Part shown: positions 855 through 63,201 of the stretch, piece by piece
Layout of the letters: each line of letters starts with the position of its first letter
How positions within the stretch are numbered: position 1 is the stretch's first letter
Origin: Amphibalanus amphitrite
Lineage: Eukaryota > Arthropoda > Thecostraca > Balanomorpha > Balanidae
Length of the DNA stretch: 64,000 nucleotides
Assembly (NCBI RefSeq): GCF_019059575.1
Contig: NW_024883070.1
Coordinates: 1 to 64,000 of the forward strand
Direction: 5' to 3'
Made by a program: the position numbers and the translations under genes
The notes under the pieces: model-generated
The model's input: only the letters and a program-made list of their open reading frames with translations
What the model was told of the DNA's origin: nothing
The model's database searches: none

Positions 855-1139
855 GGTGTATTTTTGAGTAACTTTCCGTGGTGTATTTTATTCGGAGTGG
901 TGTATTTTTCAGTAACCCTTCCGTGGTGTATTTCCCAGGAGACGGAGTGGTGTATTCTTTCAGTAACCATCCGTGGTGTATTTCCCGGATACTGAGCGGT
1001 GTATTTTTTCAGTAACCTTCCGTGGTGTATTTCCCAGGAGGCTGAGTGGTGTATTTTTTTCAGTAACCATCCGTGGTGTATTTCCCAGGAGGCTGAGTGG
1101 TGTATTTTTTTCAGTAACCTTCCGTGGTGTATTTCCCAG
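855..1139. repeat. Exon-edge array, IKK exon 1 acceptor (51-bp unit)
   Basis: Five to six units, each with TTTCCCAGGAG, (A/G)C(T/G)GAGTGG and TTTTTTTCAGTAACC. The CCCAG/GAG part copies the acceptor and first codons of the exon at 1140, which is the last unit. Confidence 0.85.
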
Positions 1140-1277
1140 GAGACGGAGTGGGTACTGTACGTGTTCAACGCGGGTGCCGGCGGGGACGGCACTCCGAGCT
1201 CGGAGGTGGTCCCCCTGCCGCCTCTGGTGCGGGATATGCTATCGAACACCGAACAACGGCCAGAGTACTACAGACAG
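1140..1277 (+). CDS. IKBKB-like: IKK exon 1 of window (end of ubiquitin-like domain)
   Basis: 46 codons, phase 0 at both ends. Acceptor TTTCCCAG before GAG; donor CAG/GTGAGA. VLYVFN followed by PLPPLVRDML matches the segment of IKK-beta around VFLFDN and SCILQEP. The acceptor is the last copy of the 51-bp array just upstream. Confidence 0.85.
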
Positions 1278-4200
1278 GTGAGAAATATAGCTCAGAGGTA
1301 GAGCATTGGAGCGCTAATCCAAAGGCCCGGGCTCGAATCCCCGTACTTAAATCTTTAACGAGCTTGCAAAAGATGACTGATGTCATCACTGTCAACCGTG
1401 GAAGCCGTATGGCTACCCATCTACGCTGGACTACGAAAAACATCATCTCACGCTCTCAGTCCCAGCGGATAAAAACAACACCTAAGAATATCACAGACAG
1501 GTGGAAAATGCACTACAGCTGGAGGAAAATACACTACTTGAGCGTCGGTACTGTTTGCACTTATGCAAAATTGCTGGTAGAGCTTGTCTTTGACCATGAG
1601 TCTGTATATGAAAAGTGTCTGATCATCTTGCAGAGGAGTGACAATTTTCTCCGCCTGTCTCCGGGGTGCCGGCTATCGCCAATAACACGATTGAACCAAA
1701 AAAACCGCCAAATGCACGCTGTATCTGTAATACCGCGGCTATTGTATGTAACTATATAACGGAACGGCGCCGGCTGCCGGTCTGCTCAGTCACCGAGGCC
1801 CCCCCCCCCCCCACAGCGGGCCATATACGCCCAGTCGGTGTTCATGATCCAGCGCAACATGGAGCTCCTCAACCTGCGGGAGCGGGCGCGACACGTGCAC
1901 ATGTGAGTCCGGCGCCCCCGGCTGTGGGGATAGCGGTGGCGCGCGCTTTTGGTTTGGTGAACATCAGCTAAACTATTGTCGCTACAAGGTGTTTGTATCT
2001 GAGGCAGTCGACCACCACTGGGTGGATATGGGTAAAATGAATTTAGCACGACGTTATTCAAGCATCCGAACGATAGGAACATTTCATAGGGGTCACGCAG
2101 TGACTAAACGGACAAGGAATTTTTGAATCATATCTATCTATCATTTCTGTCTTTTAATAGTTTATAGTGTGGAACAATATGTTCTGTTCATGTGGCTTTA
2201 AGAAGCACACTCACCCCGGTATGTAAGTATTCTGTTTCTCTGCCCCTGCACTTGGCCTATGTCCCCACAGATTATGTCTTGCTCGTCTCCTTGACCTCAT
2301 GTCTCCTTTACAGGCGCCCCTAACCCACTTTCTCCTTATTCGTTTTCATGGCATACCTGTATGACGCAACTCCTGAAAATTCATGTCTTATGGATGGATT
2401 TTAGCAAATATACATACATACATACATGCATACAGGATATCTCTGGCGCTGTCTCTGTCCCGTCTCCCGTATAGTCTCCCTGACCCCCTGTCTCTCTCCC
2501 TCAGGATGTCTCTGGCAATGTCTCTGTCCTGTCTCTCCCGTATAGTCTCCCTGACCCCCTGTCTCTCTCCCTCAGGATGTCTCTGGCAATGTCTCTGTCC
2601 CGTCTCCCGTATAGTCTCCCTGACCCCCTGTCTCCCCCGCAGGATGTCTCTGGCGATGTCTCTGTCCCGTCTCTCCCGTCTCTCGGAGCGCCTCGTCTCC
2701 GATCTCTCCCGTCTCCAGGCGGCAACGGACCTGTTCCTCGCCTCTCTGGCCTGTGACGAGGACAGTTACCTCAAACAGGCGGCAGCCGGAGGAGTCAGTG
2801 AGTGAGGGGTCGCGGGTTCGAGACCCGCCCCCGACAACGGGTTTTGACGATCTGTGCGGAAAGTTGTCTTATTCACATCTGCGTGAATTTGTGTTCGATT
2901 GATGTATGATGTTATGCATGCTTGCCTATTGAAACGCTGAAGTTCTGGATAAAATGGTTTCATTCGTTGCAGGTCATCTGTCTTGAATAAGCCATCATAT
3001 TACAATGATATTGCCGCTACCTCTCTACGCTCAAACCTTTGCATTTACGCATTATCCTTACCAGTAAAACGCCTTTTGGGCGAAGAACGAGCGAGCGAGA
3101 TAGTGAGCCCTGCACGCGCGGAAGGGCGAGAGGGTACTTCCAACGGGCTTGCGCAAAGCACCCTTCTAACCGGTCGCTAGCGGTGTACCAAATTTGAACG
3201 CAATCGGCCCAGCCGTTCCTGAGATCTGGAAGCGGCATTCTGCACGTGCGCACGTGCAAACGGGGTCCAAACTGACTTTTGCACGGCACCCTACTAACCG
3301 GTCTCCAACCGTGTACCAAATTTGAGCGCAATCGGCCCAGCCGTTCTCGAGATCTGGAAGCGCCTCCTGCACGTGCGCACGTGCAGTAGCACCTTAACCG
3401 CAACACATGGGAATGCATTGCCTGGTGGGTGCCTACCTGTATGCCAAGTTTCAGCGAAATCGCCTGAGTAATTACCGAGTTATTAAAATGGGAACAAATT
3501 TGACACCTCTTATTGTTGTATTTTGCACGTGCACTGGGGGTGACCCACATGCATCGAGAGTATCCTATTTTTGGTAGAAAGGATGCAGCTACCCTATAAA
3601 AATTGCCGCAAGTCAATCGCCCAAGCGGCTGCTGAGATATGAGCCTCTCAAAATCACTACTTTTGCAAAACAGCTTGAACACCCTTGACTTTTCACGTGG
3701 CACGTGCCACGACGGTCACTGAGATGCATCAAAAGTGGTCAATTACGGGGTAGAAGGGATGGGGCTACCCAGCAAAAAAGACCGCAGGCCAATCGGTCCA
3801 GCGGTTGCTGAGATATAAGCCTCTCAAAAGCGTTACAGGCCGGACAGGGCCGGGCCGGGCCGCTCATACTGAGATTTTTCCGTTATATTGAAAAGACTCG
3901 CTTCGCTCGCTGCGCTCGCTCGCTCGTAATTATCTTCTTCGACTCTGATTCCGGCATCTAATTCTCTTGATTTGTCCTTCAAAACTCCCTCGCATGGCGT
4001 CCGTCCATGACCCTGCCTCCATTACAATTGTCAATCTCCCATAATTTCACCTCTGATCCCATGACCCCCTCTACCCCAGTCCCTGATGACGCTACTCCCC
4101 TGCAGCTTCTGATGACGCCCCGCTCCCATCCTCTGATGACGCTCCCCTTCCCTTCTTATGACTGCCCCCTCCCCCGCAGCCTCTAATGACGCCCCCTCCC

Positions 4201-7200
4201 CCGCACTCTCTGATGACGCCCCCCGCAGACTCTGATGACGCCTATCTCCCCTCTGATGACGCCTTTCCTCTCCCCGTCTGACGCCCCTTGCAGCCTCTGC
4301 TGACGCCCCCTTCCCCCTTCCAAGCCTCTGATGACGCCCCCCCCCTCCCCCGCACCCTCTGATGACCCCCCCCCCCCCGGCAGCCTCTGATGACTCTCCC
4401 CCCTCCCCCTGCAGCCTCTGATGACGCGTACCGCCGTTGGCGGGAGGCCGGCGACCACGTCCGTCGTCGGCTCGAGCAGCACCGCCAGAAGGCCCAGCAG
4501 TTGACGGCGCAGATCACAGAGGTCCGACGGCAGGGCGCAGAGCTGCAGAGGCTCCCCGACGGCCAGCACAAGCCCGACGACCTCCGAGTCTTGTGAGTAG
4601 AGCCGGGGGATTTGAGGACACAAACCCGACGAGTTGAAGGGTTTTGTGAGTAGAGCCGGGGGATTTGGGGACACAGACCCGACGAGTTGAGTAGTGATTA
4701 TGTTGTAAGTAGAGCCGAGGGATTTGGGGACACAAACCTGACGACCTGAGGGTCTGGTGAGTAGAGCCGGGGGATTTAGGGACATAAACCCGACGACCTG
4801 AGGGTCTGGTGAGTAGAGCTGGGGGATTTGGGGGCACAAGCCCAAGGAGCTAAAGGTCTTGTCATTTTGAGTAGAGTGGAGGACTATGGGGACACAGGCC
4901 CGACGGGCTGAGGGTCTTGTGACTTGTGAGTAGAGTGGGGGGATTTGGGGACACAAGCCCGACGAGCCGAGGGTCTTGTGAGTAGAGAGAGGGGGGATTT
5001 GGGGACACAGACCCGACGACCTCAGAGTCTTGTGAGTAGAGTGGGGGATTTGGGGACACAAACCCGACGACCTCAGAGTCTTGTGAGTAGAGAGAGCACA
5101 GGTCCGACGAGCTCAAGGTGTTGTAAGTAGAGTCGGGGGATTTAGGGGCACAAACCGGACGGCCTCCGCGTCTTTTGAGTAGAGCCGGGGGTGGGGGGTG
5201 GGGGGGGGACACAGGCCCGACGATCTGAGTAGTGATTATGTTGTAAGTAGAGCCGAGGGATTTGGGGACACAGACCCGACGACCTGTGGGTCTTGTGAGT
5301 AGAGAGGGGGGATTTGGGGATACACGCCCGACGACCTCAGAGTGTTGTGAGTAGAGTAGGGGGATTTGGAGACACACGCCCGACGACCTCCGAGTCTTGT
5401 GAGTAGAGAGGGGGGATTTGGGGACACAAGCCCGACGAGTCAAAGGGTGTTGTCAGTAGAGTGGGGGACTTTGGGGACACAAGCCCAACGAGCTAAAGGT
5501 CTTGTCATTGTGAGTAGAGTGGGGAAATTTGGGGACACAGGTCCGACGAGCTCAGGGTGTTGTGAGTAGAGTAGGGGGATTTGGAGACACACGCCCGACG
5601 ACCTCCGGGTCCTTATAGAAGAGAGGGAGATTTGGGGACACAAACCGATGACCTCAGCTAACACCTCTGACCTCCGTTGACCCTGTCTGTACTCCCTGCT
5701 GACCCTCACTGATTGACCTCTCTCTGACCTCCGCCCCCCCCCCCCCCCAGCTACAACAAGGCGTGTCTGGCTTACGACAGCCACCGGCGCCGACCGAAGG
5801 AACAGCGCAGCCGCTGCTCCAGCAATCTGGACATGATACGGATCGTGGCCAAGTTCCTGGTACACCGCGATCAGCCCTTCAAATACGTCCACCAGGCCGT
5901 GTGGTGAGCGGGGGATTATACTGCAGAGGTGGGGAATATACTACAGTGGTAGGAGGATTACACTGCAGAGGGGTGTGGTGAGTGGGGAAATACACTACAG
6001 GGCAGTGTAGATAGTGGGGGGAATACACCGTGATCAGCCGTTCAAATACTACACCAGGCCGTGTGGTGAGTGGGGGATTATACTGCAGAGGTGGAGAATA
6101 TGCTACAGTGGTAGGGGAGTATACTACAGAGGTAGGGGAATATACTACAGAGGGGTGTGAGAAGGTACTACAGGTGGGTGGGGTAATATACTACCGCGGT
6201 GCGCGCATAAGAGAGTGTAGTGGGGGCCGGGGAATATCCTACAGAGGGGCTGATCAGTTAGAGGAATATACCACAGTGCTGTATGTTTAGTGTGGGAATA
6301 CACTACAGAGGAGTGTGGTCTATCATGGAGGAATACACTAAGGAATGGTGTGTGGAAATGTGCTACAGAGTGGCCTGGGGAATACACTATAAAAGCTGAC
6401 ACCATCTGTACCCCGTCTGTACCCCCAGTGACCAGCAGAAGGTGGAGAGGTACGCCCTAACCCTGTTCCAGCCTGTGACACCCTCTGTACCCCGTCTGTA
6501 CCCCCAAAGACCAGCAGAAGGTGGAGAGGTACGCCCTGGCCCTGTTCCAGCCTGTGACACCCTCTGTACCCCGTCTGTACCCCCAGTGACCAGCAGAAGG
6601 TGGAGAGGTACGCCCTGACCCTGTTCCAGCCTCTGACACCCCTTGTACCCCCTCTGTACCCCGTCTGTACCCCCAGTGACCAGCAGAAGGTGGAGAGGTA
6701 CGGCTCTCCAGTAAAAGTCTTGTTGGTTTTGCTTTTTCGGACATATCTGGTCCTATGTAATGTTCAAATGCATAAGTATCAACCCGAATTATGTGTATGC
6801 ACATTTACCACGAGACTGTGAAATTGCATCGTTGTATGCCAAATACTTTCCGAGATAATCACCAAATACCTCATTTTCTGCCGTTTGGGGTATTCTGGCC
6901 GCAATCTTCCTGGGATCGCCTATGACATTAGTAGAGCCATCTAACGAGAGGAGCGCGGAAACACAGAATCATGAATGAATCGAGCGCGTAGTAAACGGTG
7001 TATGAAAGGGAGACTCGGCAGAGGCTATCCGGGTAGCCGGCGCGCGGCGCGCCCTTAGGCATCGGCCGACCCTTCGGACCGCGTGGGGTCAGAGGTCGCG
7101 CTCGGGAAGTCTCGGCTCTGGGTTTTAGCGCTGTGCAGTCAGGAAGGGAGGATAGGATAGCGCTAGCCCGACTGACTACTGTGAATAGTATCTCGGCTGA

Positions 7201-10200
7201 TTCGTGTGGGGTGGAAGGGAGCACAGAACGGGATGGTGGCTAGTGGTGGATGATGGGATGGTGGTTAGGTTAGTGCGTACTGCGTAGAACGTAGCTGAAC
7301 ATGCATTGTTTTTTTTTCATGGCAAACAACATGCAGCATAATGTGCGGGATTATGCCAGAACTCACACAAAAAGGAAATAATATTTCGGCCGAGGAAGTG
7401 GATGAGTGCCGTGACAAAGCATGACGATGCTGCCAAAATCGGGATGCTTTTTTGCCCCCCCCCCCCCATTTTTTTTACCCCTAACATGCAGCGCTTGATC
7501 CGAACTTAGAGGTCCCCGACTGACCTTAGACCTTAAAATCGCACCCGTCCGGTGCGCCACCTTTTCTTCAGGGGCGCTCTTCTTGGTTGTATCTGTTCTT
7601 ACCAATAACTAAAGCAAACCGAATGTATAATAAAAAAGGCATACCTCAAACACAGTTTTATTCACACCCGCTCGTGTGCATACTTGTTTTGACCTATAAC
7701 TTCTCGCATCATAATATATCACTTCAGTGCTTAACCCTCAACGGAATTTTGGGTTTCCTACATATGCCCCGGCCGAGGGGGGGGGCGAATACGACCCCTC
7801 TCCGTCTTTTTGCCCCTAATTGAGCTAGCGCCTTGCGGATAAAACTGAGCGCGTGCGTCGTATGAGATGCAGCAACTGGTACCCGAGTTGAATGTCTCAG
7901 GTCAACCGATAAACTCTGAGGTCAGTACAAGTGCTCCAAGTCGCGGGATCGTTTTTTGGTAAACAACTTCACCATAAGTGGTTACAGAGCCAAGATCATG
8001 GCACCATCGACTGAGTTTTGCATGCTCAAGCGCGTCGAATAGTATACGCTTTGTTTTTGTTGAGGTCAATTTAATGTGTTCACATCAGGTCATGGTCAGG
8101 GCAGAGCCATTCAGGCCACGAAGCTGGCCCAAGGAGGTCATATCGCTTCTTCGATTCGGTAGGTCCTCACAAGTCCACTGGTGGCTTCCCGACTCGCTAG
8201 CTCAATTTGATCGGGACTTTTTGGTGAAAACTCCTGCAACAGGGTGTCCGGAAAGTCCTGGCGCTTTTCAACATTTTTGAAACAAATGCCTTTGGTCCAT
8301 ATATACTCAGCAATAGAACAAAACAATGACCAGGAACACCAAGCCACATGCTTCTGCTAAGTGCCCATTCATTGAAACCACCGTCTGTGCCGACGACGGT
8401 CTCGACGCAAGGGCGGAAACGCCTGCGGCTTTTGACGATGCAGGACAATTCCTATCCTCCCATGCTGTCATGATGCGAGTCTTCAGCGACTCCAGGCTGA
8501 GATGAGAGGTGGCCGAGAGCTTATTCTGCAAAACGCGTAGCATGCCTTAGTTGAACGGGTTAAGGCTGGGATAATAAGGTGGCCTAATCTCATTTCACCA
8601 CGGCGATCTGGTCCGCCGAGCTCCTCTGTCAGTTTGGCTTGGACGGCAGCGGCGTTGTTGGAGGGCGCTCCGTGCTGTTAAAGTGCGAAATGACCCTTTC
8701 GTCGACAATCAAGGCGACGACCCTTCGGGCACGTCGCCTTGATTGTCGTGTCCACTGTCCAGGAACCCCTCGTGGACCAGCCTGTCAGCCATTTATGTAA
8801 CCTTGACGAAAATGATGGAACATTTGTGCCCATCAGACCCCAGATTTTCTTCGATTGCCGCTGAAATGCTGCTTCAGTCTCAGCAGCTTTGGCATACCGT
8901 GGTCGTAACTGAGTGATAATATTTTCTAAGAAATTTCCGATCCGGAATGCACCTTTGCCTGCTCAACCGTTCGCCGGGAAACGCCGCATCGCGCTGCAAC
9001 TCGCGCCTTGTTCAAGCCGCACCGGGCTCTCAGAGACAAGGCGCATCTTCGCCCATATACCTAGCACTGAAAACGATTCAACGTCATATTTACGCGACCC
9101 TTAGCTGAGCGGTGACCGAGGGTTCATATCTGCGGTGATTGGTTGAAAGTCCAATAATCACAGTGCGCGTTAGACGACGTCCAAAAGAGGCGCCAGAACT
9201 TTCCGGACACCCTGTTCGCGCACCGGGAGATCGCTCCGGTTTCGTTCATGCGGTCACCATTTCTCCCTAGTCTTAGAGACCAGCGGCTGGCGACCAGCTT
9301 GAAAACCCGCCGAGAAGCACGAGTGTGGCCGTATCATGACCACGGGTATCGCCATCATGTCGGTCTGTGTTTGTGTTAGGCACTTTTCGGAGCGATAAAA
9401 GAAGAAAGTAAATATACAGACTGAATAGTAGAAGTTATAACGCAAATACAAAATGTTTGCCTACTAAATTATGACATAAATTGAAATTTGTAAGATGCAA
9501 TGTTAGCTTTTCAGAACAAAACAAGATGTAGGAAAAATACCTTGTTTGTGATCACCAGAAGCGAATTTTGCCGTAGGGAAACTGGTTAAAAACAGCTGAA
9601 AAGTGATAGCACGGATTGACTTCAGTTAACTTTCCGGAGTCGGAGTCGAGGCAGCTGGACCGACTCCGACTCCGACTCTGACTCCTGGCTGCTTGCCACG
9701 ACTCCGGGCGACTCCGACTCCGACTCCGACTCTGACTCCGACTCCGACTCCGAAACCCTGCCTCCTACCCTCAGTTTTTCGCAAATAACTCGCGCAAAAA
9801 GCGGCTGATTGCGACGAAACTTTCAGTGCCCTCGAGTTAATGAATATTACGCCTACTCTATAATTTGTATGACCCTGACTCAAAAGACCTTTGACTTGTG
9901 ACCTGTTTTCCAAGACCATGTTTGGCCGGAATCGCGAATCGCGTTTTGGCGTATTTCGAGTAGAGCGCGTTTTATTGTCTTTTTGTGGCTTTAAGCGATC
10001 AAACATGTGAAAGGATGTTGATCCCATGGATTCTAGTGGGCATCAAGGTCACGTGAAGGTCAGTCAGGTCACTGGCCTTTGATGACTTTTGTTCACTCTT
10101 TCGAGTTCTACATGTTTCTAAGGTAGATTTTGGAGTTGATTTCGCATTTAGAAACCGTTTGAACATTTAAGAAGTAGTTTTGGTTCCCTCGTAACATGTG

Positions 10201-19988: not shown

Positions 19989-19990
19989 TA

Positions 19991-21346: not shown

Positions 21347-21348
21347 TA

Positions 21349-22875: not shown

Positions 22876-22877
22876 TA

Positions 22878-24235: not shown

Positions 24236-24339
24236 TATGTTTGATGTTATCTTCGACATTTGTCTATAAAAGCTGTGATGTAGAGCCTGCTCCCAAATGT
24301 CACAGTTCTCAGGGCCTTTCCTCGCTGATCACAAATGCT

Positions 24340-24705
24340 GTCACTCTCAGGGCCTATATTCACAAAGGCGTCCGTGCGTGGTATACAGTCTGGTATACAG
24401 TCTGTATACAGTTTGTAAACACCCGCTGATATACAGCATGTACTCACAACTGTGACTAGGCATCCCTACAGTATATGTATACTCACAAATCCACACGCGT
24501 GGTGAGCGAACAGTGAACAAATACCCACTGGCCCCCATAAATGTGACTATCCCTACAGTCTCGACTCACAAATCTGACCATCTTTCGGCCTCTGTTTTCA
24601 ACCGTAACCTTATCAGGGTCTGTACTCACAGATGTGTCCGTGCTTAGGGCCTGTACTCACAGATGTGTCTGTGCTCAGGGTCTGTACTCACAGATGTGTC
24701 CCTGC
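24340..24705. repeat. Array derived from the stop-codon end of the lectin-like gene
   Basis: On the minus strand, units contain CACATCTGTGAGTACAG and C(C/T)CTGA: the codons for HICEYRP and its stop, repeated about four times (24610-24705) and more degenerately down to about 24340. The functional copy is the first in gene direction. Confidence 0.8.
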
Positions 24706-28912: not shown

Positions 28913-29076
28913 TCACTGGTTCCTCGGTGTGAAGCTGAGGAAGAGCCCTCCCTCCAGCCGCAGTATGACGTCCGGCCTCAGTTTGATGGTGTCCAGGCTG
29001 TCGTGGGAGGTGACGTGGAAGGTTCGCACCACGCTGGCCAGCAGCACCTTCTCCTCCATCAGCGCAAACTTCTGAC
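28913..29076 (-). CDS. CYP4-like: P450 last exon (C-terminal beta region, stop)
   Basis: Acceptor CCCCGCAG; phase 1 start completes Gly of NCIG. Encodes [20 protein letters not shown], then [22 protein letters not shown] and TGA. Flanked on both sides by arrays made from its own edges. Confidence 0.95.
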
Positions 29077-56000: not shown

Positions 56001-59000
56001 CTTGCCCAGCTGGTGGAGCGTGAGGTCCCGCTGGGCTGCGAGGACAGTTCCCACGGTGGGCGGCAGGCTCTGGAGCAACTTGTGTCTCACGAGGTCGTCG
56101 CCGACCCCCACCTTGCGGCCAATCTCCTGTAGTTCTCTGACGAAAAGAGAAGGCCGTCCGGTCAGTTGGACCTTGCTGATGAGCTGATCGAATAGCTCAG
56201 ACCTAGTCCGCTCATAGAGGGAGCACACAGCATCCCGCAGGGTTGCATAGCTGCTCGAACCAAGCACTGATGTGTCAAGCTTGGAGACTGTGGTGGGCGG
56301 AAGGGCAGCCAGGACGTGGTAGAACCTGGTGGTGTCGCTGGTAATCTTGGCCAGATGGAATTGGGCCTCCATGATCGCGAACCAGCCCTGGACAGCCGTC
56401 TCCATGAAGGCTGGTGGCTTCACTGACACGTGCTGGACAGCACCAGTGGCAGAGTCAGTTGGAGCAGCTGCTGCTGCTGCACCCCCAGTCACAGGGACAA
56501 CAGTGTCACCGGAGAGGGCACGGCCATCATCAACAGGGTCAGGCATCACGACGAGCAGGTGGGGAGGTCAATCAACAAAACAGACAAAAAAAATGACAAC
56601 AAAAGCACAGGAAAAGCAGGCAAAACAATCACGTCGGGCAGGTCACCAGTTATGAAGTGGTCAGGTAAAGGCTACGTGCTCTGTGATTGGAAGGAAAATG
56701 ATTGTTCTGCCAAAATGACACGTGGGACGAAAGACAATGTTTAGGTAAGCGAGATAACGAGAGATCAGCGGTAAAAATTAAGGAAAAACGTGAGGAAAGT
56801 TCGCGCGAATACTCAGCCTGTCAGACGCCACTGTGCACTGTAGAAAAGCTATATTTAGCGTAGATATATCGAGATGTGAAAAAACTGTGTAACGAGAGCC
56901 GGAATAACAATGGAGCGGAAGCGACAGTGCCAGAAACACAAACTATTTTAGATAAAAGATAGAAACGGGCTTACAGAAAACAACGAAATAATTACGCCAA
57001 TTAAAGCACAATAAACTTATTTTAGAACGCAAGTAACATTATATAATCTTAAGACAATAGCGAAGATAATACGATTTAAATATAATACTAAAAACGAGAT
57101 CAGAAGGTACTTGAAAAGGAAACAGTATTTGCGCACACGCGACAAAACAATAGCGCACTTGGGCGGAGACGCCGCAACTAAATAATGTGCCGGTGGGCTG
57201 CGCGGCACCACAGACCTGGCCTGACCCAAAGTGACCGGGGCTGACTCCCTTGGCCTTTCTAGACCCCGTGTCAGCCAAATTTCATCCAACAAAACCCTCA
57301 GAACAGTTCTTTTTCAATTCTCTTCACATTTCCGTCCATATCTATGCTTCTAGACGACACATCGATTTGAAAAGAACACCATTCGAATTCCGTCCATATC
57401 TATGCTTCTAGACGACACATCGATTTGAATCGAACACCATTCGATAGCAAATTGGCTGATGCCGCAATTTTTTCCTACAACGCAGCAAAGCAAGTGGCGC
57501 AGCCGCTTGTCTATACTACTATTTGAACAGGATCCATCTGTTTGTTTGTTTGTCTGTCCGCCACGCCGTGTAGTGGGTTCAATTTAGCCGGCCTACAGGG
57601 CAGACGGTATATCGTAGGGGGTTGAAATTTGCACACCTTATAGGTGACAGAGTGGGTCAGCGCCTTTTCTAGGTTTCCACTCGCTGGGGTGCACGGTTCG
57701 CGCGTGGGGCGCGCTAGAAGAACGGCAATGAAATTTTGATCGGTTCGTAGATCTTCATTGAGAGCCGGGGTCGACAAACTTTGTGAACTAAATGCATGCC
57801 GATCGGTGGCGGGTGCCTCGCATTGAAGGATGGTGAAATTATTGATTTTGATAAATGGTGGCGAAAAAATGTGTTGATTGTCGCTAAATGGGTACAGTTT
57901 GCGATAGGAACTTAAAAATGCACCGTGTTTGCCGCAAGGCGCCACAATTATCTCAGGGCGCCATTTTTGCCACAAATCGCACAGTTTTGTCAAATATAGT
58001 CCGATATGGGTGCAATTTGGTGCAAGGGTGCATGCTCAATCGCCGGGTGACAATGCGCCGCGTTTGTCGCAATGCGCCAAATTTGTCACAAAGCGCCATT
58101 TCCGACAAATACGATGAAGCGTAATGGAATGGCACGAATAGGAGCAGGGCTAGGAACACTTCGTCTTATTTTTAGTACTTATTATTATATTAACTTAGTC
58201 CGTGACCTGACGTGACCCAGTGGTATTGGTAGGGGTAGAGGTACGGGTGTTTTTTGCGGCGTTTGCGGTTGGCGGAGGGCGGTCGCACGATGCTGGCAGT
58301 TTTCAGTTTTGCAGCGTTTGCGGTTGGCGGCGGGCGGGCGCGCGATGCGGGCGGTTTTCATTTGTTGCGGCGTTTGCGTTTGGTGGCGGGCGAGCGCGCG
58401 ATGCGGGCGGTTTTATTTTTTTGCGGCGTTTGCGGTTGGCGGCGGGCGGGCGCGGGATGCGGGCGGTTTTCATTTTTGCGGCGTTTGCGTTTGGTGGCGG
58501 GCGGGCGCGCGATGCGGGCGGTTTTCATTTGTTGCGGCGGTTGCGTTTGGTGGCGGGCGAGCGCGCGATGCGGGCGGTTTTAGTTTTTTTGTGGCGTTTG
58601 CGGTTGGCGGCGGGCGGGCGCGGGATGCGGGCGGTTTTCATTTTTGCGGCGTTTGCGTTTGGTGGCGGGCGGGCGCGCGATGCGGGCGGTTTTCATTTGT
58701 TGCGGCGTTTGCGTTTGGTGGCGGGCGGGCGCGCGATGCGGGCGGTTTTAATTTTTTTGCGGCGTTTGCGGTTGGCGGCGGGCGGGCGCGGGATGCGGGC
58801 GGTTTTCATTTTTTGCGGCGTTTGCGTTTGGTGGCGGGCGGGCGCGCGATGCGGGCGGTTTTCATTTGTTGCGGCGTTTGCGTTTGGTGGCGGGCGGGCG
58901 CGCGATGCGGGCGGTTTTAATTTTTTGCGGCGTTTGCGGTTGGCGGCGGGCGGGCGCGGGATGCGGGCGGTTTTCATTTTTTGCGGCGTTTGCGCTGTTG

Positions 59001-62000
59001 TTCGCGGTTGGAGGCGGTCGTTTTTTATTTTTGTTTGTGCGGTGTTTGCGTTTGTCGGCATGCGGGCGTTTTTAGGCGTTTGCGGTTGGCAGTTAGGGTG
59101 CGTGCGATGCGGGCGTCTTTTTTGCGTTTTTTTGTGTTTTTGTTTTGCGGTTTGCGGCGGTTGAGCGTTTTTTTTTTTCAATTTGCTTTCGCATTTGCTC
59201 ACCACGCAGCAAAGCAAGTGGCGCAGCCGCTTGTCTATATTACTATTTGAGGAGGGTGCGTCTGTCCGTTACCGAGGTCCCGACTTGGTCGTGCTTTGCG
59301 TGGACTACAGGCCAGACCGTTGCACCTAGCCCGGTGAAATTTGCACAACTTATAGATCAAGGATGCGCGACGTGCCTTTGAGGGGTCTCAGCTCGATCGG
59401 GTCGTTAGTGAGCGCGTGGCGCGTGCCCAAAAAGTGCAAATTCGCGTCATAGACTTTACATGTATAAATCGGCGTGCGAAATCGGGCGAAAACGGCTAAT
59501 TTTGGCCGACACGGGTCCAGTTCCCGTGCATTATCTTGGTGACCAGGGGTCCGACCGGCACAGGGAAAACAGCATCGTGTACAGAATTGAACGGGCTATC
59601 GAATGGTGTGCGGTGCAGGGGATGACACGCGCCATGTGCACCGGGGAGGGCACTTTTATGTGGAAAATTGACGTTTTGGACGGATTTTGGAATTGATTTT
59701 ATTTTTAGGTGACCGTTAAACGGAGCGAGTTGGAACAACCCCTGTTGGCAAGAGAAATGTACCGCCTCTCATGAGAAAATTGTGAAAAGCTGATTGCTCC
59801 AAATCAAGGTGGTACAAATCACGGAAGAAAATGGTGTTTGTCAATTTTGTGCCACTTTATTAATCACACGGGTTTTGCTCAATGATCTGATAGCTCTGGC
59901 AATAAACAAATTGCACCATTGGAAAGAGCATTCAATTCTGTCCAAGGCTCAGCCTTCATTTTTGCATGATGATCAACAGCATTCTTAAAAATGTAAATAT
60001 TCCAAACCATTACATTGTCATTTTTACCGGAATTCGTCGATGGCCATCAAAAGACTTCACGTCAGTTTTCGAATCATTCTAAAGTAGAAAGCATGATAAT
60101 ACGACACGGGCACCTCGATGCGATGTATCCTTTTTGTTTTATTACAAAATGCTTGGCCGTCAAAAAGAAATCGAACGAAATGGATACCAACCAGATCGAC
60201 ACAGACCAACCCAATACCCACGGGTCAAAAATAACCCTTCTTCGCGTTGCGGAGCACGCGGGTCACCCTAGTAGCAACTATAACACAATACAACAAATAC
60301 AAAATTTTTAACCCACGAGCCGCTGGGGGGCATAAAGTTGCCCCCCTTTACGTTTGGTGTTATATCTCCGAAACCGGATGAGATACGAAGCTGAAACTTG
60401 GCATAGCTTCAAATGAATACCTAGCGCATATTTGACGAAAGTTTGGTGGTTGTAGCTTTTAAGATGACGTCACAGTGACGTCATAAAGTTTTGTCGTTTT
60501 CCGATATGGAGCGTTTCCGATGTCGCTGACCACGAAAAGCAACGGTAAATGATCTAAACAGCACCTGTTGTCATTCTGACACATCTAAGTACACTTTCAA
60601 CTAGATCCTGACCAGTGATCGGCCCAATATATTCGGTCTCATATGTCGGATATATCGTGAGGAAACCCAGGGACGCAAATCTATAATTGGGCTTCTGACG
60701 TCACTGTGACGTCATTTCAAGTGGGATCGACACCAAATTTTGACACAACCTCGGCTAGGTATTCAGAAATATGTGTGCAAAGTTTCGTTTCTCTATCTCT
60801 TCGCGTTGCGACGATATCGTCGGAGAAGTAAAGGGGGGGCAACTATATGCCCCCCCCCCCAGCGGCTGGCGGGTGGCGCGGAGGCCCAGCGGCCGCCGGG
60901 TTAATAAACGATCCACACCGGCTGAGCATCACGAGTTATTGCTAGCGATCTGGCAGCATAGCGTCTGTGATGTTAGATGTCCCGATTAGAAGGTCTATCC
61001 GTGTGACGTCACAACTCACAAGTCACTTGTAGCCGTGTTATATGACGCCACTGCTCTCGTATGTCAGCCTGCACATGCTAAATGACGTCAAAACTCACTC
61101 GTAAACGTATTATATGACGTCAAAGCTCACTAGTAGACGTGTTATATGACGTCACTACTATCTCGTAGCCGTCATCGTTTTATTGTTGTTTTTTTTTTCG
61201 TTTTATTGCCTTGCTTTTTTAACTATCTCGTAGCCGTGTAATACGACGTCACTACCCAGTAAACATGCCGACGTCGGCCCAACGTCGGCCCGAGGCTCGG
61301 CCCGACGTCGGCCCAACGTCGGTTCAACCTCGGCCCGACATCGGCTGGACGTCGTATATGCCCGCATGTTCCGACGTCCAGCCGAAGTCCAGCCGACGTC
61401 GGGCCGAGATCGTTTGCCGAGGTTGACGAGATCGTTGGTCGTTGGACCGACGGGGCCGACGTCGGCATGTTTATTGGGACAACGCGCCAAAAATATCAAC
61501 CGGCGGTGGGATTCGAGCCCCCCAGTCGCCGACGTCGGCGTGTTTACTGGGACAACACGCCAAAAGGATCAGCCGGCGATGAGATTCGAACCCCGTGTCA
61601 TTCGAACGCGATGTTAGTGCGCTAACCACTACACCACGCAGCCAACTAACGAATTTGGTTTGTTTTGTTGTGTTATGCCCTTTCGGTCTGACAAGACCAT
61701 TTCAGAGCCGGAAGGATCATAGGATGGAGACATTGGTCTTCTCGGCGAGCACCCTGGGTCCAGTTCATATAGAGTCCCTGGTCCCATTGTTGTTACGTGA
61801 CACTTATTGGAAAGGGCGACCCCACAATGGATTCATATAGCCACTCTTACACACCTGCACCAACGTTTCCCAAAGTGTCCCTTTGATTAGTGGCACTTTG
61901 GCAAAGTGACACTTGCCGACTGGCCTTTCTATATGAACTGGGCTCGGCCCTGGTGAGTTGCCGGGGCTGAGCCTGACCAAAGGATAGGCCGAGCAGCCCC

Positions 62001-63201
62001 CAAGCACTCACCGCACCCGGCTACGGGCGAGCTCGGCTTACGGGCAATCCCAAATGGGAGATAAAGTTTCCCGTCCAGTCCGGATCAGGGGGTGGCGGCG
62101 TGGAGGAAGATTTGAGTTTCCTGAGGATATTTTGAATACAGAAGCTCTTTATGAAACATGAAACATGTATTTTATATTATTTTAACGGTCAAAACAGCGG
62201 CCGATGTCGGTCCGACGTCGCCCCGACGTCGGCCCGACGTCGGCTGGACCTCAGCAATTGATCTCGGTCCGACGTCGGCCCGACGTCGGCTGGACCTCGG
62301 CTGGACGTCGGAACATGCGGGCATATCCGACATCCAGCCGACGTCGAGCCGAGGTTGGACCGACGTCGGCATGCCGATGCCGAGTTGCCGACGTCACCCC
62401 GACGTCGGCCGACGTCGGGCCGACGTCGGCATGTTTACTGGGTACTCTCTCGTAGCCGTGTTATATGACGTCACTACTCACCTGCAGACGGCCTGCGCAG
62501 TGCACGTGTTATACGACGTCATTAATCATTTCTGTCTCTATATTATCAGACGTCACTAGTCACTACTCACTCGTAGACGGCCTGCACATAGTCTGTACGA
62601 GCTCCATCCTGAGCCTTGATCTGAACGCCCATCGTGGCTTCTGAAACATAAACGAAATAAATAACTTCAGTGCTATTTAATTGTGAGACTAGAAATACAA
62701 CGTCATCGTTTTATTGCCTGTCTCCCTGCTGAAAATGCGATGTATTAGGTACATGCATAAACAAAGTAAGTAAAACATGATCTTGCTTCATGTCTCAGTA
62801 CATATCAGGCATCATATCGCATAGTAGAATATCCAGTGCAAAATACACACAATATCTCTGTACATTTACGTGAATTTATGCATCAGTAGGTAATGCATAA
62901 CGGATGTGAAATAGCATGCCGCTAGTCATTCATAACCTCATGGAGCCCTCATTGCCCTAGTGCTACGCTAGTCACTAGCATGACCGCTGACCCAAACGTT
63001 CCGTTGTCCACGCCGTACCGCATATGATATCGAGTGTCGCCTTGGTGATGAATGGGAACACGTTCACGCGCTGGCCGCCAGTGTCCTTCAGCTTTGCCAC
63101 CAGAACCTGCGACTGCTCGTTGAACACGTCCATGAACTGGTCCAGAATGGTGAAGTGGAACGCCGGCGTCAGCATCTTGCGCCGCTTGTGCCACTTGGTG
63201 C
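28913..63201 (-). CDS. CYP4-like: Cytochrome P450, CYP4 type, nine C-terminal exons (about 380 residues)
   Basis: CYP4 enzymes are ER-bound monooxygenases that hydroxylate fatty acids, hormones or xenobiotics. Exons in gene order: 63201-63019, 62640-62571, 49955-49829, 46247-46175, 45790-45681, 40652-40537, 30809-30688, 30085-29906, 29076-28913. All phases agree; the total is 1145 nt, beginning two bases into a codon. Signatures: [14 protein letters not shown] (C-helix), I-helix [18 protein letters not shown]-helix [19 protein letters not shown], heme loop [11 protein letters not shown] and C-terminal [17 protein letters not shown] full CYP4 has about 500 residues, so some 120 N-terminal residues (membrane anchor included) are off the right edge. 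The gene is intact in what is visible despite more than 30 kb of intronic transposons and arrays. The clade within CYP4 cannot be set. Confidence 0.96.
29077..29295. repeat. Exon-edge array, P450 last-exon acceptor (about 66-bp unit)
   Basis: Four to five units with (minus strand) CCCCGCAG/GTCAGAAGTTTGC, the acceptor and first codons of the last exon. The functional copy is the lowest-coordinate one. Confidence 0.9.
29480..29905. repeat. Exon-edge array, P450 heme-exon donor
   Basis: 46-bp intronic units (ACCGGTCCCGTCC, CTAATCTGTC, GCTCTGTG) include at about 29777-29830 a second copy of the last 40 nt of the heme exon with donor: [11 protein letters not shown]-coding sequence then GTGGGTGG. 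The genuine exon end is 29906. Confidence 0.9.
29906..30085 (-). CDS. CYP4-like: P450 heme-binding exon
   Basis: 180 nt, phase 1 to 1. Acceptor GGCAG/AC, donor G/GTACGT. Contains [37 protein letters not shown] and [13 protein letters not shown], with the heme-ligand Cys. Confidence 0.97.
30116..30130 (+). repeat. tRNA B-box-like motif next to the heme exon
   Basis: GGGTTCGAATCCCG, a consensus B-box followed by a G-tract, about 30 nt from the exon acceptor. A SINE fragment is likely. Confidence 0.4.
30345..30687. repeat. Exon-edge array, P450 K-helix-exon donor (about 57-bp unit)
   Basis: About seven units. Minus strand: (C)TCAGACACCGTCATTG/GTCAGTTAGTGCGG, i.e. SDTVI plus the donor GTCAGT, then TGACGTCATCGG. 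The functional exon end at 30688 is the first copy in gene direction. Confidence 0.93.
30688..30809 (-). CDS. CYP4-like: P450 K-helix exon
   Basis: 122 nt, phase 2 to 1; acceptor TTCCCAG, donor G/GTCAGT. Encodes [19 protein letters not shown] followed by [21 protein letters not shown]; the ExxR motif is present (ETLR). Confidence 0.96.
30810..31177. repeat. AGGTCA-rich intronic repeat
   Basis: Irregular repeats of GGTCACAGAGG(G/T)CAGA. Rich in AGGTCA half-sites. Not derived from the neighbouring exon edge. Confidence 0.6.
31182..32199. mobile_element. TTAA-flanked MITE with G/C tracts
   Basis: Flanked by TTAA at 31178-31181 and 32200-32203. Ends CCCTCGCCAGCCGAGG and, inverted, GCCGGCCGAGG then AGGG. 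TTAA target sites suggest piggyBac-type mobilisation. No ORF; internal direct AGGTCA repeats. Confidence 0.5.
32259..33150. mobile_element. TIR element (about 0.9 kb), non-autonomous
   Basis: Left end TAGGGGAAGTTGGGGCAATG, right end GCGTTCCCCCAACTTCCCCTA in inverted orientation. Several internal (G)GGGCAATGCCG-like boxes echo the end. No transposase. Its right end is included in the 428-bp repeat that flanks the LINE. Confidence 0.65.
32983..33410. repeat. 428-bp direct repeat flanking the LINE, left copy
   Basis: Identical by eye to 39778-40205 (offset exactly 6795). It contains the right end of the TIR element and the start of the CACCTCTAGTGACCC array. Behaves as a very long target-site duplication. 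Confidence 0.85.
33613..34893 (+). CDS. LINE ORF1, RNA-binding protein
   Basis: 426 residues. Acidic/Ser N-terminus, a coiled coil (about 95-175, heptad Leu/Ile with [17 protein letters not shown]), then an RRM-like/L1 ORF1 C-terminal-type domain around [18 protein letters not shown] and [18 protein letters not shown]-terminal 100 residues Pro/Ala/Gly-rich. It should bind the LINE transcript. Very GC-rich, unlike ORF2. Confidence 0.75.
   Translation: MSASVQTFRSSDSGNFAMDSDSGDDPTFTDCQASGSESASGTFGGRKRQLFLHDMVRSADGKRAKRQAAGRGSGSPGDPLAPAAGRAGAGPASEPVQLSAAALAEIKQLIDQSNANVIRALEAKLESVERRLNMLEGECMEKDCKIQQLSKQLDQQVRANEELDSRLEELDMNGRLSSLILACDAFKAHPRSASVEQLVVTVLNQRVPGLSVTTADLQAAHKLQNDSKVFCKFTKRQVRDAVYESRFDMVRFREGNTGRDGRQLAPLYISESLTPRNRLLYDELLRAKRPESGGLIASVFSRRGVVWCRTERGGANLRVRDEADLRRILGGRRFPVQQRVSGRGVLPRTSPAARRPPDSDSFDGRPPPRRAAADALPGPPGDSGAAGSRGTAAEPRETASVADSGATAPPGLPSAGGVAGSSSAPA
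34894..35797. other. LINE inter-ORF spacer
   Basis: Short ORFs only; no domain recognised. An internal promoter or translation-control region is possible but not visible. Confidence 0.5.
35798..39650 (+). pseudogene. LINE ORF2: endonuclease-reverse transcriptase, one frameshift
   Basis: The main open frame is 35961-39650 (1229 codons). The endonuclease start ([18 protein letters not shown]) is in another frame from 35798 and shifts at the T8 run near 36001-36008. Seen in the long frame: AP-endonuclease GDFNI (about residue 101), SRIDYVF and SDHSF (about 187); reverse transcriptase [29 protein letters not shown] (about 556), FQGSPLSG (about 617), YADDTTLF (about 657); a C-terminal CxxC...H...C cluster ([17 protein letters not shown]). 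This is typical of L1/Tx1-group LINEs. A single homopolymer change separates it from an open gene, so assembly error is an alternative. Confidence 0.85.
39778..40205. repeat. 428-bp direct repeat flanking the LINE, right copy
   Basis: Same sequence as 32983-33410; continues on the right directly into the array at 40206, which shows that the original locus was on this side. Confidence 0.85.
40100..40530. repeat. 27-bp minisatellite beside the P450 I-helix exon donor
   Basis: Units of TTGCACCTCTAGTGACCCGAG. It starts within about 10 nt of the donor at 40536 but does not include exon sequence, unlike the other arrays. Confidence 0.85.
40537..40652 (-). CDS. CYP4-like: P450 I-helix exon
   Basis: 116 nt, phase 0 to 2; acceptor GTTTCAG, donor AG/GTAGGT. 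Encodes [19 protein letters not shown] and [19 protein letters not shown]; includes the oxygen-activating (A/G)GxDT core. Confidence 0.97.
40688..40745 (-). repeat. Single decoy copy of the I-helix exon 5' edge
   Basis: Repeats the acceptor CTGAAACAC and about 50 nt of the exon with a 3-nt deletion (GTGTCGTGACC). It is placed upstream in gene direction, with AGGTC repeats between. A one-copy version of the acceptor arrays. Confidence 0.85.
40746..41342. other. Intronic stretch
   Basis: No exon or repeat recognised between the I-helix exon copy and the Helitron-like element. Confidence 0.5.
41343..42942 (+). mobile_element. Helitron-like non-autonomous element, copy 1, with TAGGG array
   Basis: Starts TCTACTATTATAAATC after an A and ends CAGTTATCGCGTAAACCTG (imperfect hairpin), TACCTCTAG. 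TC...CTAG (CTRR) ends, a near-terminal hairpin and no target duplication are Helitron hallmarks. The centre (about 41805-42750) is a (TAGGG)n minisatellite with TAGTG/TAGGGG variants. No Rep/helicase ORF. Confidence 0.65.
42943..44902 (+). mobile_element. Helitron-like element, copy 2, head-to-tail with copy 1
   Basis: Begins TCTACTATTATAAATC immediately after the CTAG of copy 1 and ends with the same tail before a T. Contains two TAGGG arrays (43490-44055, 44180-44712) separated by a second copy of the post-array tail (GTTGAGTT(C)AAAAAGG...), so it has an internal duplication. Confidence 0.65.
44903..45241. repeat. Intron with short GTGACCTCTGACC units
   Basis: About seven degenerate 25-bp units of CACACCACGTGACCTCTGAC (45080-45241), grading into the exon-edge array that follows. 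Confidence 0.6.
45242..45680. repeat. Exon-edge array, P450 exon 5 donor (60-bp unit, seven copies)
   Basis: Minus-strand unit: GGGAGGAGGTCGACACGTTC, ATGTTCGAG/GTCAGTAGG, TCATGTGGGGGTCACGTG. It repeats the [10 protein letters not shown] codons with the donor. The period is a multiple of three and stop-free. The genuine exon ends at 45681. Confidence 0.95.
45681..45790 (-). CDS. CYP4-like: P450 exon before the I-helix
   Basis: 110 nt, phase 1 to 0; acceptor GGCTTCAG, donor GAG/GTCAGT. Encodes [19 protein letters not shown] followed by [18 protein letters not shown], the standard CYP4 lead-in to the I-helix. Confidence 0.96.
45791..46174. other. Intron with a GC donor
   Basis: Starts (minus strand) CAG/GCGAGTTCC, so it is a GC-AG intron if the exon model is right. 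No repeats noted. Confidence 0.6.
46175..46247 (-). CDS. CYP4-like: P450 small exon (VIRTRREEL)
   Basis: 73 nt, phase 0 to 1; acceptor TGTCCAG. Encodes [18 protein letters not shown]; phase 1 at the GC donor joins to GT AAG of the next exon, giving Gly. Fits the CYP4 linker after FTDS. Confidence 0.85.
46281..49302. mobile_element. 3.0-kb TIR element, non-autonomous, with nested MITE
   Basis: Left end CAGGGAGTATGCGATTTCAG and right end with its complement, both next to TTA/TAA. The arms are over 200 bp and contain internal CCTAGGGTCGTTGCAAC repeats in both orientations. The left arm is interrupted by the MITE at 46486-47406; arm homology (TCATCGAGTCTC(A/G)TTTCAC) resumes after it. The interior holds GGTCAGGTCA-rich sequence and no transposase. 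Confidence 0.75.
46486..47406. mobile_element. piggyBac-type MITE (TTAA target) nested in the TIR arm
   Basis: TTAA at 46482-46485 and 47407-47410. Inverted ends CCCGGCAGTTGCTGGGG and CCCAGCAACTCGCGGG. Removing it restores the interrupted arm of the host element, which confirms the insertion. Confidence 0.75.
49303..49828. repeat. Intron with GAATAGTGAGAA repeats
   Basis: From 49370 to 49600, irregular units of ACAGAATAGTGAGAAGCACAG. They contain a GTGAGAA motif but no recognisable exon sequence. Confidence 0.6.
49829..49955 (-). CDS. CYP4-like: P450 exon 3 of window
   Basis: 127 nt, phase 2 to 0; acceptor TTTCAG, donor TCG/GTACGT. Encodes [20 protein letters not shown], then [22 protein letters not shown], matching the CYP4 F-G region (RPWLHPD..., LKVLHGFTD). 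Confidence 0.95.
49956..50167. repeat. Weak exon-edge duplication, P450 exon 3 acceptor
   Basis: AAACAC(C/G)ACCTCGCC(C/T)A followed by ACTGA(A/C)A at the exon edge recurs at 50131-50157; a shorter CTCATACTGAAAC copy lies at 50032-50044. Confidence 0.6.
50895..51215. repeat. GGTAGGGGTAGT minisatellite
   Basis: Central array of the Helentron-like element. It creates spurious Pro/Leu/Thr-rich and Gly/Arg-rich ORFs. Confidence 0.9.
51269..51828 (-). repeat. 3' LTR (in element direction)
   Basis: 560 bp; differs from the other LTR at one noticed position (AAGCTCGCG versus AAGTTCGCG). It adjoins the polypurine tract at 51829-51845. Confidence 0.93.
51874..55908 (-). CDS. pol: Gypsy-type pol: protease, reverse transcriptase, RNase H, integrase
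   Basis: 1344-codon open frame in the -1 frame relative to gag, overlapping it by 247 nt, so frameshift expression is likely. Order: aspartic protease ([13 protein letters not shown], about residue 113), RT ([25 protein letters not shown] at about 420), RNase H ([21 protein letters not shown]), a long Ala/Pro/Arg linker (about 690-840), integrase zinc region (HPGVKASL...CSSC), catalytic core ([32 protein letters not shown]) and a GPY/F-like end ([11 protein letters not shown]). No chromodomain seen. The N-terminal part upstream of the protease is out-of-frame gag overlap. All key catalytic motifs are present. Confidence 0.93.
55662..56549 (-). CDS. gag: Gypsy-type gag
   Basis: 295 residues. 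A capsid-like helical region with [27 protein letters not shown] and [12 protein letters not shown], then a basic Ser/Arg stretch and a short Cys/His cluster ([18 protein letters not shown]) as in CsRn1-type gag. Its 3' end overlaps pol. Confidence 0.85.
56653..57212 (-). repeat. 5' LTR (in element direction)
   Basis: 560 bp, begins TGTGGTGCCGCGCAG and ends ACTTCA on the minus strand. The primer-binding site follows within a few bases at 56652 downward. Confidence 0.93.
57314..57446. repeat. 58-bp tandem duplication
   Basis: TTCCGTCCATATCTATGCTT, CTAGACGACACATCGATTTG and ACACCATTCGA occur twice in tandem, in the 3' part of the Helentron-like element. Confidence 0.85.
57510..59233 (+). mobile_element. 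Helentron-like element 2 with GC-rich minisatellite
   Basis: Begins TCTATACTACTATTTGAAC directly after the terminal hairpin of the previous element and ends in the same hairpin (CAAGTGGC GCA GCCGCTTG) at 59233. The 5' 700 bp match 50168-50890. The array at 58245-59100 repeats GCGGCGTTTGCG, GTTGGCGGCGGGCGGGCGCG and ATGCGGGCGGTTTT. No Rep/helicase gene. Confidence 0.65.
59234..60307. mobile_element. Start of a third Helentron-like element and unassigned intron
   Basis: TCTATATTACTATTTGAGG at 59234 is the same 5' end, again abutting the preceding hairpin. Homology fades after about 59400 and no 3' hairpin is seen. The remainder has no recognisable gene. Confidence 0.5.
60312..60900. mobile_element. 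TTAA-flanked MITE
   Basis: TTAA at 60308-60311 and 60901-60904. Ends CCCACGAGCCGCTGGGGGG and the inverted CCAGCGGC/GCCGCCGGG, with a C-tract inside. Same style as 31182-32199 and 46486-47406. Confidence 0.6.
60990..61254. repeat. Exon-edge array, P450 exon 2 donor, left part
   Basis: Units of (minus strand) GTCTACGA/GTGAGTAGTGACGT then CATATAACACG, with variants. GTCTACGA/GTGAGTAGTGAC is the end and donor of the exon at 62571. Split from its right part by the TIR element at 61255-62442. Confidence 0.85.
61580..61650 (-). repeat. tRNA-related (SINE-like) sequence
   Basis: Minus strand: A-box TGGTGTAGTGGTTAGCGC and B-box GGGGTTCGAATCTC at tRNA-like spacing. A second partial B-box lies at about 61505-61525. 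Acceptor stem not convincing, so tRNA-derived. Confidence 0.55.
61655..62140 (-). repeat. Dispersed repeat, copy 2 (related to 14041-14400)
   Basis: Shares CCCTTTCGGTC, GACCATTTCAGAGCCGGAAG and CACCGCACCCGGCTACGGG with copy 1. Interrupted by a 185-bp MITE at about 61758-61943. Confidence 0.65.
61758..61943. mobile_element. 185-bp MITE nested in the dispersed repeat
   Basis: Ends CCAGTTCATATAGA and TCTATATGAACTGG are perfect inverted repeats; internal AGTGTCCC/AGTGCCAC repeats. Absent from the other copy of the host repeat. Confidence 0.75.
62443..62570. repeat. Exon-edge array, P450 exon 2 donor, right part
   Basis: Two to three further units before the functional donor at 62570, with the same ATATGACGTCACTACTCAC core. 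Confidence 0.85.
62571..62640 (-). CDS. CYP4-like: P450 exon 2 of window
   Basis: 70 nt, phase 1 to 2; acceptor TGTTTCAG, donor GA/GTGAGT. Encodes [20 protein letters not shown] then VY, the CYP4 motif following IICE. Confidence 0.95.
62641..63018. other. Intronic stretch
   Basis: AT-rich, no repeat or RNA recognised. Confidence 0.5.
63019..63201 (-). CDS. CYP4-like: P450 exon 1 of window (C-helix)
   Basis: 183 nt, phase 1 to 1; acceptor GGTTTCAG, donor G/GTACGG. Encodes [37 protein letters not shown] and [15 protein letters not shown]. WxxxR heme-contact residues are present (WHKRR). Preceding exons are outside the window. Confidence 0.96.

Follow-up and report, generated by a model that had tools for sequence, protein, structure and literature searches.

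The original description of the tandem repeats called mirages is reportedly that given by Canestro in 2002. In amphioxus, mirages lie across exon-intron boundaries and have been described for Adh3, for the globin genes BflGb6 and BflGb9 and for other loci (PMC3087553), as well as for PGBD5 and TnC (PMC3902484). In the sections of these accounts drawn on here, splicing was said to be undisturbed, repeat length to be unstable (both between alleles and somatically) and the generating mechanism to be unclear (PMC3087553, PMC3902484). In human genes located in segmental duplications, minisatellites with units averaging 30 bp were noted at exon-intron boundaries together with 27 intron modifications, according to the part of the report cited here (PMC2812944). 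A third related proposal, attributed to Rogers in the cited section of PMC3087553, is intron gain through tandem duplication of AG/GT proto-splice sites.

The locus compared with these systems is a window of 64,000 nucleotides (the whole stretch of DNA that was analysed) from the barnacle Amphibalanus amphitrite (contig NW_024883070.1, positions 1 to 64,000 of the forward strand). Tandem arrays at exon edges of three genes had been claimed in an original prediction for this window, and the observation proved largely real. The accompanying statement that no named process produces such arrays was incorrect, given the amphioxus mirages and the minisatellites at exon-intron boundaries of human duplicated genes.

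Results

Gene models

The coding edges considered belonged to the following genes.

1140..18462, forward strand: IKK-like kinase gene, 3' nine exons (Pfam IKBKB_SDD, 5.5e-30)
28913..63201, reverse strand: CYP4-type P450 gene, nine exons (Pfam p450, 3.4e-105; identity with A. amphitrite P0001)
24706..25527, reverse strand: lectin-like ORF (best PDB match mannose-binding protein, E 0.02)

The P450 exons joined in frame into 380 residues, with AG acceptors and GT donors except for one GC donor (exon 4), and 379 of the 380 residues were identical to those of P0001 ('cytochrome P450 4V2-like isoform X3', Amphibalanus amphitrite). An amphioxus origin of the window, considered at first on account of the mirages, was rejected by this barnacle match. 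The product also matched the CYP4B1 structure 5t6q (E 1.1e-76). The deposited isoform X3 uses the same exon joins as the nine-exon model, i.e., the innermost sites. The GC donor of exon 4, at 46175, agrees with P0001; P0002 has five extra residues there, and this donor, at which P0002 departs from the model, was without an array.

The Pfam match of the IKK-like product is to the scaffold dimerization domain, and in a PDB search the product was matched by the human IKK-beta chain 4kik_A (E 6.1e-17 over residues 25-285). No IKK relative passed E 0.001 or 0.01 in two protein searches (at least 7,990 candidates and 377 candidates); therefore, the IKK joins rest on frame and on Pfam and PDB homology, and the last three IKK exons on frame and splice signals. 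The prediction that the functional site belongs to the copy adjoining the exon body was thus supported for P450 by identity with P0001 and for IKK by frame and homology only. The lectin-like ORF had no Pfam match at 0.001 (PAN_3 was sub-threshold at E 0.27). Exons of the IKK and P450 genes were 70-183 bp in length; the lectin-like ORF is longer.

Arrays at splice edges

The edge set comprised 38 coding edges in the three genes, i.e., 18 acceptors, 16 donors, 3 stops and 1 start. Under a fixed ungapped rule, which asked for 29 or more matching bases out of 40, 12 or more of them to each side of the edge, at a distance of no more than 1.5 kb, 13 of the 38 edges had a copy. Gapped alignment, which covered 17 of the 38, added two P450 edges, the acceptor of exon 6 and the donor of exon 2. 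Tandem copies were thus noted at 15/38 edges, as opposed to the 'about half' first claimed, and were distributed over 7/18 acceptors, 6/16 donors, 2/3 stops and 0/1 starts. Repeat units of contiguous exon and intron sequence were present at 13 of the 34 splice edges, in two genes and at both exon ends. Copy numbers listed for each edge array include the functional copy.

Edge arrays in the IKK gene were as follows.

854..1151, forward strand: 51-bp array, exon 1 acceptor (exon 1140-1277); 5 copies, AG in 4/5
2433..2673, forward strand: 71-bp array, exon 3 acceptor (exon 2643-2797); 3 copies, AG in 3/3
4074..4427, forward strand: units of 22-77 bp, exon 4 acceptor (exon 4415-4592); two TRF arrays, 11 copies, AG in 8/11
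4567..5657, forward strand: array of about 52 bp, exon 4 donor, occupying most of the intron; 18 copies, GT in 16/18
5880..6194, forward strand: exon 5 donor (exon 5751-5903); 2 copies, with 20-21-bp repeats besides
6397..6702, forward strand: exon 6 acceptor array, left part; 4 copies, AG in 3/4
11873..12401, forward strand: exon 6 acceptor array, right part (exon 12350-12494); 6 copies, AG in 6/6
14474..17930, forward strand: 73-bp array, exon 8 acceptor (exon 17896-18022); 44 copies, AG in 44/44

By gapped alignment, further copies at the exon 3 acceptor matched at 57/60 and 58/60 bases, one further copy in the right part of the exon 6 acceptor array was identical at 60/60 and the second copy of the exon 5 donor, 162 bp off, matched at 50/52 (61/64 in another comparison). 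The main part of the exon 8 acceptor array extended from 14859 to 17930, and its outermost sites were at 14437 and 14543. The exon 6 acceptor array, with 10 copies in total, was divided into its two parts by an insertion at approximately 6703-11872. This insertion had GTAC at both sides, short inverted ends (GGCTCTCCAG / CTGGAGAACC) and, within it, inverted arms of 178 bp (97%) at 11241-11418 and 11680-11857.

Two further stretches were noted near the first IKK exon of the window. A 78-bp array at 1-191, at the window edge, has a first copy that reads SALQCWAPPE and then gtagga in one frame, and may be where the previous IKK exon has its donor. A tRNA-like stretch at 1283-1348 scored 38.4 bits with the Rfam tRNA model, while ARAGORN found no tRNA there; it is perhaps a tRNA-derived SINE.

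In the P450 gene, the arrays at splice edges were as follows.

29060..29250, reverse strand: 54-bp array, exon 9 acceptor (exon 29076-28913); 4 copies, AG in 4/4
29488..29936, reverse strand: 118-bp duplication and 39-bp repeats, exon 8 donor (exon 30085-29906); 2 copies
30350..30709, reverse strand: 52-bp array, exon 7 donor (exon 30809-30688); 7 copies, GT in 6/7
40600..40760, reverse strand: duplication at the exon 6 acceptor, 78 bp apart (exon 40652-40537); 51/52 bases, AG in both
45253..45710, reverse strand: 60-bp array, exon 5 donor (exon 45790-45681); 8 copies, GT in 8/8
62460..62600, reverse strand: exon 2 donor (exon 62640-62571), weak copy 89 bp downstream; 26/30 bases

The two exon 8 donor copies were homologous at 96/112 bases. 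The exon 6 acceptor fell below the ungapped rule (25/40) and was counted through gapped alignment. The exon 2 donor copy 89 bp away matched at 24/27 bases in another comparison, and a second copy, approximately 1.5 kb off, matched at 25/31.

Compared with the original prediction, 13 of the edges listed as multi-copy were upheld (seven in IKK, five in P450 and the lectin-like stop) while the P450 exon 2 donor proved weak. Among the edges listed as weak, the P450 exon 6 acceptor was confirmed by its 51/52 match and three others were not. Thus, the IKK exon 6 donor had no further copy by gapped alignment, although a 22-bp TRF array starts 4 bp within this exon at the donor side; the IKK exon 7 donor failed the ungapped rule (6/20 exonic and 19/20 intronic bases); and the P450 exon 3 acceptor fell short of it (26/40). 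Gapped alignment also gave no further copy for the P450 exon 6 donor.

Array sequences, compared by eye, differed from array to array, in agreement with the prediction that units are unrelated. The motif TGACGTCA, which we take to be CRE-like, was common to two P450 arrays, with 15 occurrences in 28150-28972, 9 in 30350-30709 and 52 in the window; the TRF consensus units otherwise looked unrelated by eye.

Placement of arrays relative to chance

After 84 TRF rows with a period of at least 10 were merged, 47 arrays totalling 11,881 bp remained, and these spanned 12 edges (10 splice edges and 2 stop codons). An end within 60 bp of a coding edge, 60 bp being one of three distances tried (15, 30 and 60 bp), was found for 17 of the 47 arrays, compared with an expectation of 4.9-5.0; the observed count was reached in 0/1,585 shifts and 0/4,000 random placements. 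At 30 bp there were 10 such arrays (0/1,585 shifts, 5/4,000 placements) and at 15 bp there were 6 (12/1,585 shifts, 26/4,000 placements). Among arrays of at least 100 bp, 14/24 ended less than about 60 bp from an edge where 2.8 were expected, a count reached by no shift and no placement, while arrays shorter than 100 bp showed no edge excess (3/23 versus approximately 2 expected). The array-end excess was also unusual gene by gene, at 2/4,000 for IKK and 31/4,000 for P450 and, for arrays of at least 100 bp, at 9 and 2/4,000, respectively. All of these edge-excess probabilities are optimistic because the window was chosen for its arrays.

The tests of whether arrays lie nearer to edges than shuffled positions thus disagreed in this window, with an excess for array ends (17/47 versus about 5) and a marginal result for coverage. 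Edges covered by an array numbered 12/38, compared with a shift mean of 6.8 (78/1,272) and a placement mean of 6.2 (207/5,000). A nearby copy by the ungapped rule was found for 231/688 intron points in IKK and 288/1,427 in P450 as compared with 13/38 edges, and many of these random intron points fall inside edge arrays. For exon-interior points the corresponding figure was 3/107, versus 519/2,115 for intron points. With transposable elements cut out, 11/24 arrays spanned an edge as opposed to 12% for a 60-bp unit (binomial P 4.4e-5), the limits of the elements being set by eye and some of the 24 being pieces of one array. In a looser count of the same set, on which this P value is not based and to which no weight is given, 15/24 were within 60 bp of an edge.

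These results bear on the possibility that the genome is simply rich in minisatellites and that a window picked for its edge arrays gives a misleading picture, with no genome-wide excess. The marginal edge coverage, the repetition of IKK intron points as often as edges, the lack of excess among short arrays and the use of one window, selected for arrays, are all as this explanation would have it. The array-end test, however, lay outside both null models, and the excess was unusual in each gene taken alone; ascertainment is judged unlikely.

Arrays at stop codons

Two arrays included stop codons.

28150..28972, reverse strand: 58-bp array, P450 stop codon; 13 further copies, stop triplet in 13/13
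24613..24736, reverse strand: 31-bp array, lectin-like stop codon; 3 copies (TGA, TGA, TAA)

The P450 array comprised 4 copies at the gapped-alignment threshold and the 13 further copies at a looser one. There was no array at the IKK stop codon. Both ends of the lectin-like gene had been predicted to carry arrays, and this held for the stop, with its three copies; at the 5' end, the feature in question is a 39-bp (13-codon) repeat at 25379-25495, near the N-terminus and within the coding frame, rather than an edge array.

Since these edges have no splice site, whatever makes or tolerates the arrays needs none. Their presence at 2/3 stop codons, as opposed to 13/34 splice edges, runs counter to the suggestion that the duplication mechanism starts at splice junctions. 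A process of this kind, tied to splicing or transcription (R-loop formation, RNA-templated repair or a paused polymerase) and beginning at splice sites, would account for arrays lying near edges more often than under random placement. It is nevertheless disfavoured, and rated quite unlikely, because stop codons carry similar arrays; moreover, the units hold contiguous exon and intron sequence, and of 15 edge arrays or array parts only 4 had motifs of the G-quadruplex type. Seeding by G-quadruplexes, considered as a candidate in its own right, was rejected on this count, to which a single array contributed two of the four positives.

The only residue of the P450 model unlike P0001 was codon 379, which is N in the window, as it is in P0002, and D in P0001. 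This codon lies inside the stop array, and D was encoded by 10 of 11 outlying copies in a pattern search. The comparison, which concerns one residue and was made at the protein level only, suggests that the functional stop copy may exchange sequence with its array.

Anatomy of arrays and upkeep of copies

Arrays had been said to start exactly at exon boundaries, whereas the 12 edge-spanning arrays in fact include 12-60 bp of coding sequence. None of the 18 IKK and P450 exons was wholly inside an array (2.1 expected), a result that is not significant as it also appeared in 206/1,585 shifts. Exonic bases within arrays were not depleted overall (372 versus a shift mean of 427, with 127/317 shifts as low). 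Three TRF arrays were located wholly within coding sequence, at 25104-25146, 25379-25495 and 29970-30008; their periods (21, 39 and 15, respectively) are all divisible by three, and the 21-bp array contained 13% indels. Of the two causes originally offered, tolerance of duplications at edges with selection against them inside exons fits best.

AG, GT or the stop was kept in 115/124 outlying copies, compared with an expectation of 106.7 based on the bases around them (P 0.012), i.e., in 68/72 acceptors (65.1 expected), 32/36 donors (28.3) and 15/16 stops (13.2); the excess is weak because it is small and the copies are not independent. Identity of outlying copies was 3,122/3,405 (0.917) for exonic parts and 2,764/2,906 (0.951) for intronic parts. 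Exonic parts were therefore kept no better than intronic parts, and nothing pointed to coding by the outlying copies. Constraint of a coding kind on their exonic parts was considered but received no support from identity; distinct exonic differences, which numbered 33, 29 and 48 at codon positions 1, 2 and 3, showed a weak lean to the third position (P 0.065).

The slight excess of retained signals would be expected if the extra sites were functional, as decoys or in regulated alternative transcripts, and boundary tandem repeats can give alternative splicing in human duplicated genes, in the part of the report cited (PMC2812944). Nevertheless, a function of this kind is very unlikely in view of the upkeep of exonic parts, which is no better than that of intronic parts, and of the deposited P450 isoform X3, the joins of which are the innermost ones.

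Among seven arrays in which identity could be compared with distance from the functional copy, identity fell with distance in one, rose in one and showed no trend in five. Some outlying sites matched the functional site at 40/40 or 60/60 bases, so that local sequence cannot pick the site that is used and position must do so. In exon definition, the acceptor and donor that are nearest across an exon pair with one another, which would explain use of the innermost of several identical sites.

Other copies differed from the functional copy by up to approximately 20% in gapped alignments. Such divergence is not what mis-assembly would be expected to add, and although tandem repeats are hard to assemble, errors would show no preference for coding edges and an insertion that has GTAC at both sides breaks up one of the arrays. 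An assembly artefact is thus considered extremely improbable.

Other repeats and mobile elements

Several other repeats were noted in the window. A perfect 428-bp direct repeat (32983-33410 and 39778-40205) flanks a stretch that resembles a non-LTR retrotransposon, with reverse transcriptase and endonuclease domains, and takes in part of a 22-bp array adjoining the P450 exon 6 donor; it is either a target-site duplication of unusual length or a duplicate that arose in some other way. An ORF on the reverse strand at 51874-55989 encodes a polyprotein of the LTR-retrotransposon type (protease, reverse transcriptase, RNase H and integrase), the domain order of which is presumably that of the Gypsy type. 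Long TAGGG-type pentanucleotide arrays at 41806-42751 and 43488-44703, in a P450 intron, have flanks that are similar by eye. Also by eye, two inverted copies of an element with ends like ACAGGGTGTCCCATAAGTTC were seen between the IKK and lectin-like genes, at approximately 19992-21345 and 22876-24236.

Discussion

The reading preferred here, with a probability of roughly 0.55, is that the barnacle arrays are tolerated edge duplications of the mirage type that then underwent minisatellite turnover. In a first step, ordinary tandem duplication (slippage or unequal exchange) of tens of bp, and up to about 160 bp, would have produced a duplicated stretch that happened to straddle an exon end or stop codon. 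In a second, the duplication would have been tolerated since the copy adjoining the exon body preserves an unbroken coding sequence. Where exons are short and introns long, as here, exon definition would pair the nearest acceptor and donor and ignore outlying identical sites, and beyond a stop codon the downstream copies would simply be untranslated. Outward copying, the third step, would then have given arrays of up to 44 units, a pattern evident in the window, where most copies retain AG, GT or the stop. In a fourth step, suggested by the single case of P450 codon 379, the functional copy may join the exchange between units, so that the exon end would evolve with its array.

Tolerance alone predicts that approximately 12% of arrays should span an edge, as opposed to the 11/24 observed, so that something more is needed. 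One guess is anchoring, in which a conserved edge unit would re-seed its array while unanchored intron arrays would decay or be overwritten by transposable elements, thereby giving the edge excess. The fall of identity with distance in only one of seven arrays, and its rise in another, lend this guess no consistent support.

More tentatively, and with the balance of judgement against it, coding edges, whether splice sites or stops, might anchor minisatellites throughout barnacle genomes, and these arrays might keep exchanging sequence with the functional edge, such that exon and protein ends evolve in concert with them. Such a system could have arisen independently of that in amphioxus, perhaps because exon-definition splicing meets very high polymorphism in either group. 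For another barnacle, Balanus improvisus, coding diversity of approximately 5% and a repeat content of at least 40% are given in the cited part of PMC8270832, and frequent exchange in a setting of comparable diversity and repeats would be plausible.

If the pattern is general, barnacles would make an oddity named in lancelets open to study in an arthropod and would show that its cause need not be splicing. The arrays would also serve as natural experiments on site choice by the spliceosome where dozens of sites are nearly identical, and would mean that exchange with adjoining non-coding repeats can alter the ends of exons and proteins. Annotators of barnacle genomes would likewise be warned of false exons. 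No report of exon-edge repeats in barnacles was found in the open-licence literature among the matches listed, as judged from titles and the starts of abstracts, and a scan of viral contigs with one array unit gave 0 matches.

Among described systems, ordinary minisatellites or VNTRs resemble the barnacle arrays in unit size, divergence of copies and likely turnover by unequal exchange, but the ends of the barnacle arrays are nearer to coding edges than random placement gives. Intron gain at AG/GT proto-splice sites, as outlined in the cited section of PMC3087553, shares with them a tandem duplication that carries splice signals; in the barnacle, however, no new intron was seen, and the joins of all nine P450 exons are those of the deposited protein. 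The human boundary minisatellites alter splicing and can form new introns, whereas the barnacle coding joins appear unchanged, and in the part of the report cited the human repeats are not described as edge copies that flank an intact exon (PMC2812944). The closest likeness is to mirages, the anatomical definition of which in the cited sections (exonic and intronic sequence within the unit, at both exon ends) also describes the barnacle arrays. Mirages are known from cephalochordates, while the present host is an arthropod of the Cirripedia with arrays at 13/34 splice edges in two genes and up to 44 copies in one of them. In addition, the barnacle arrays extend over stop codons, which are absent from the sections of the mirage accounts cited here (PMC3087553, PMC3902484) and which argue against a splice-specific cause. 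What is new is the barnacle host, the density of the arrays and their presence over stop codons.
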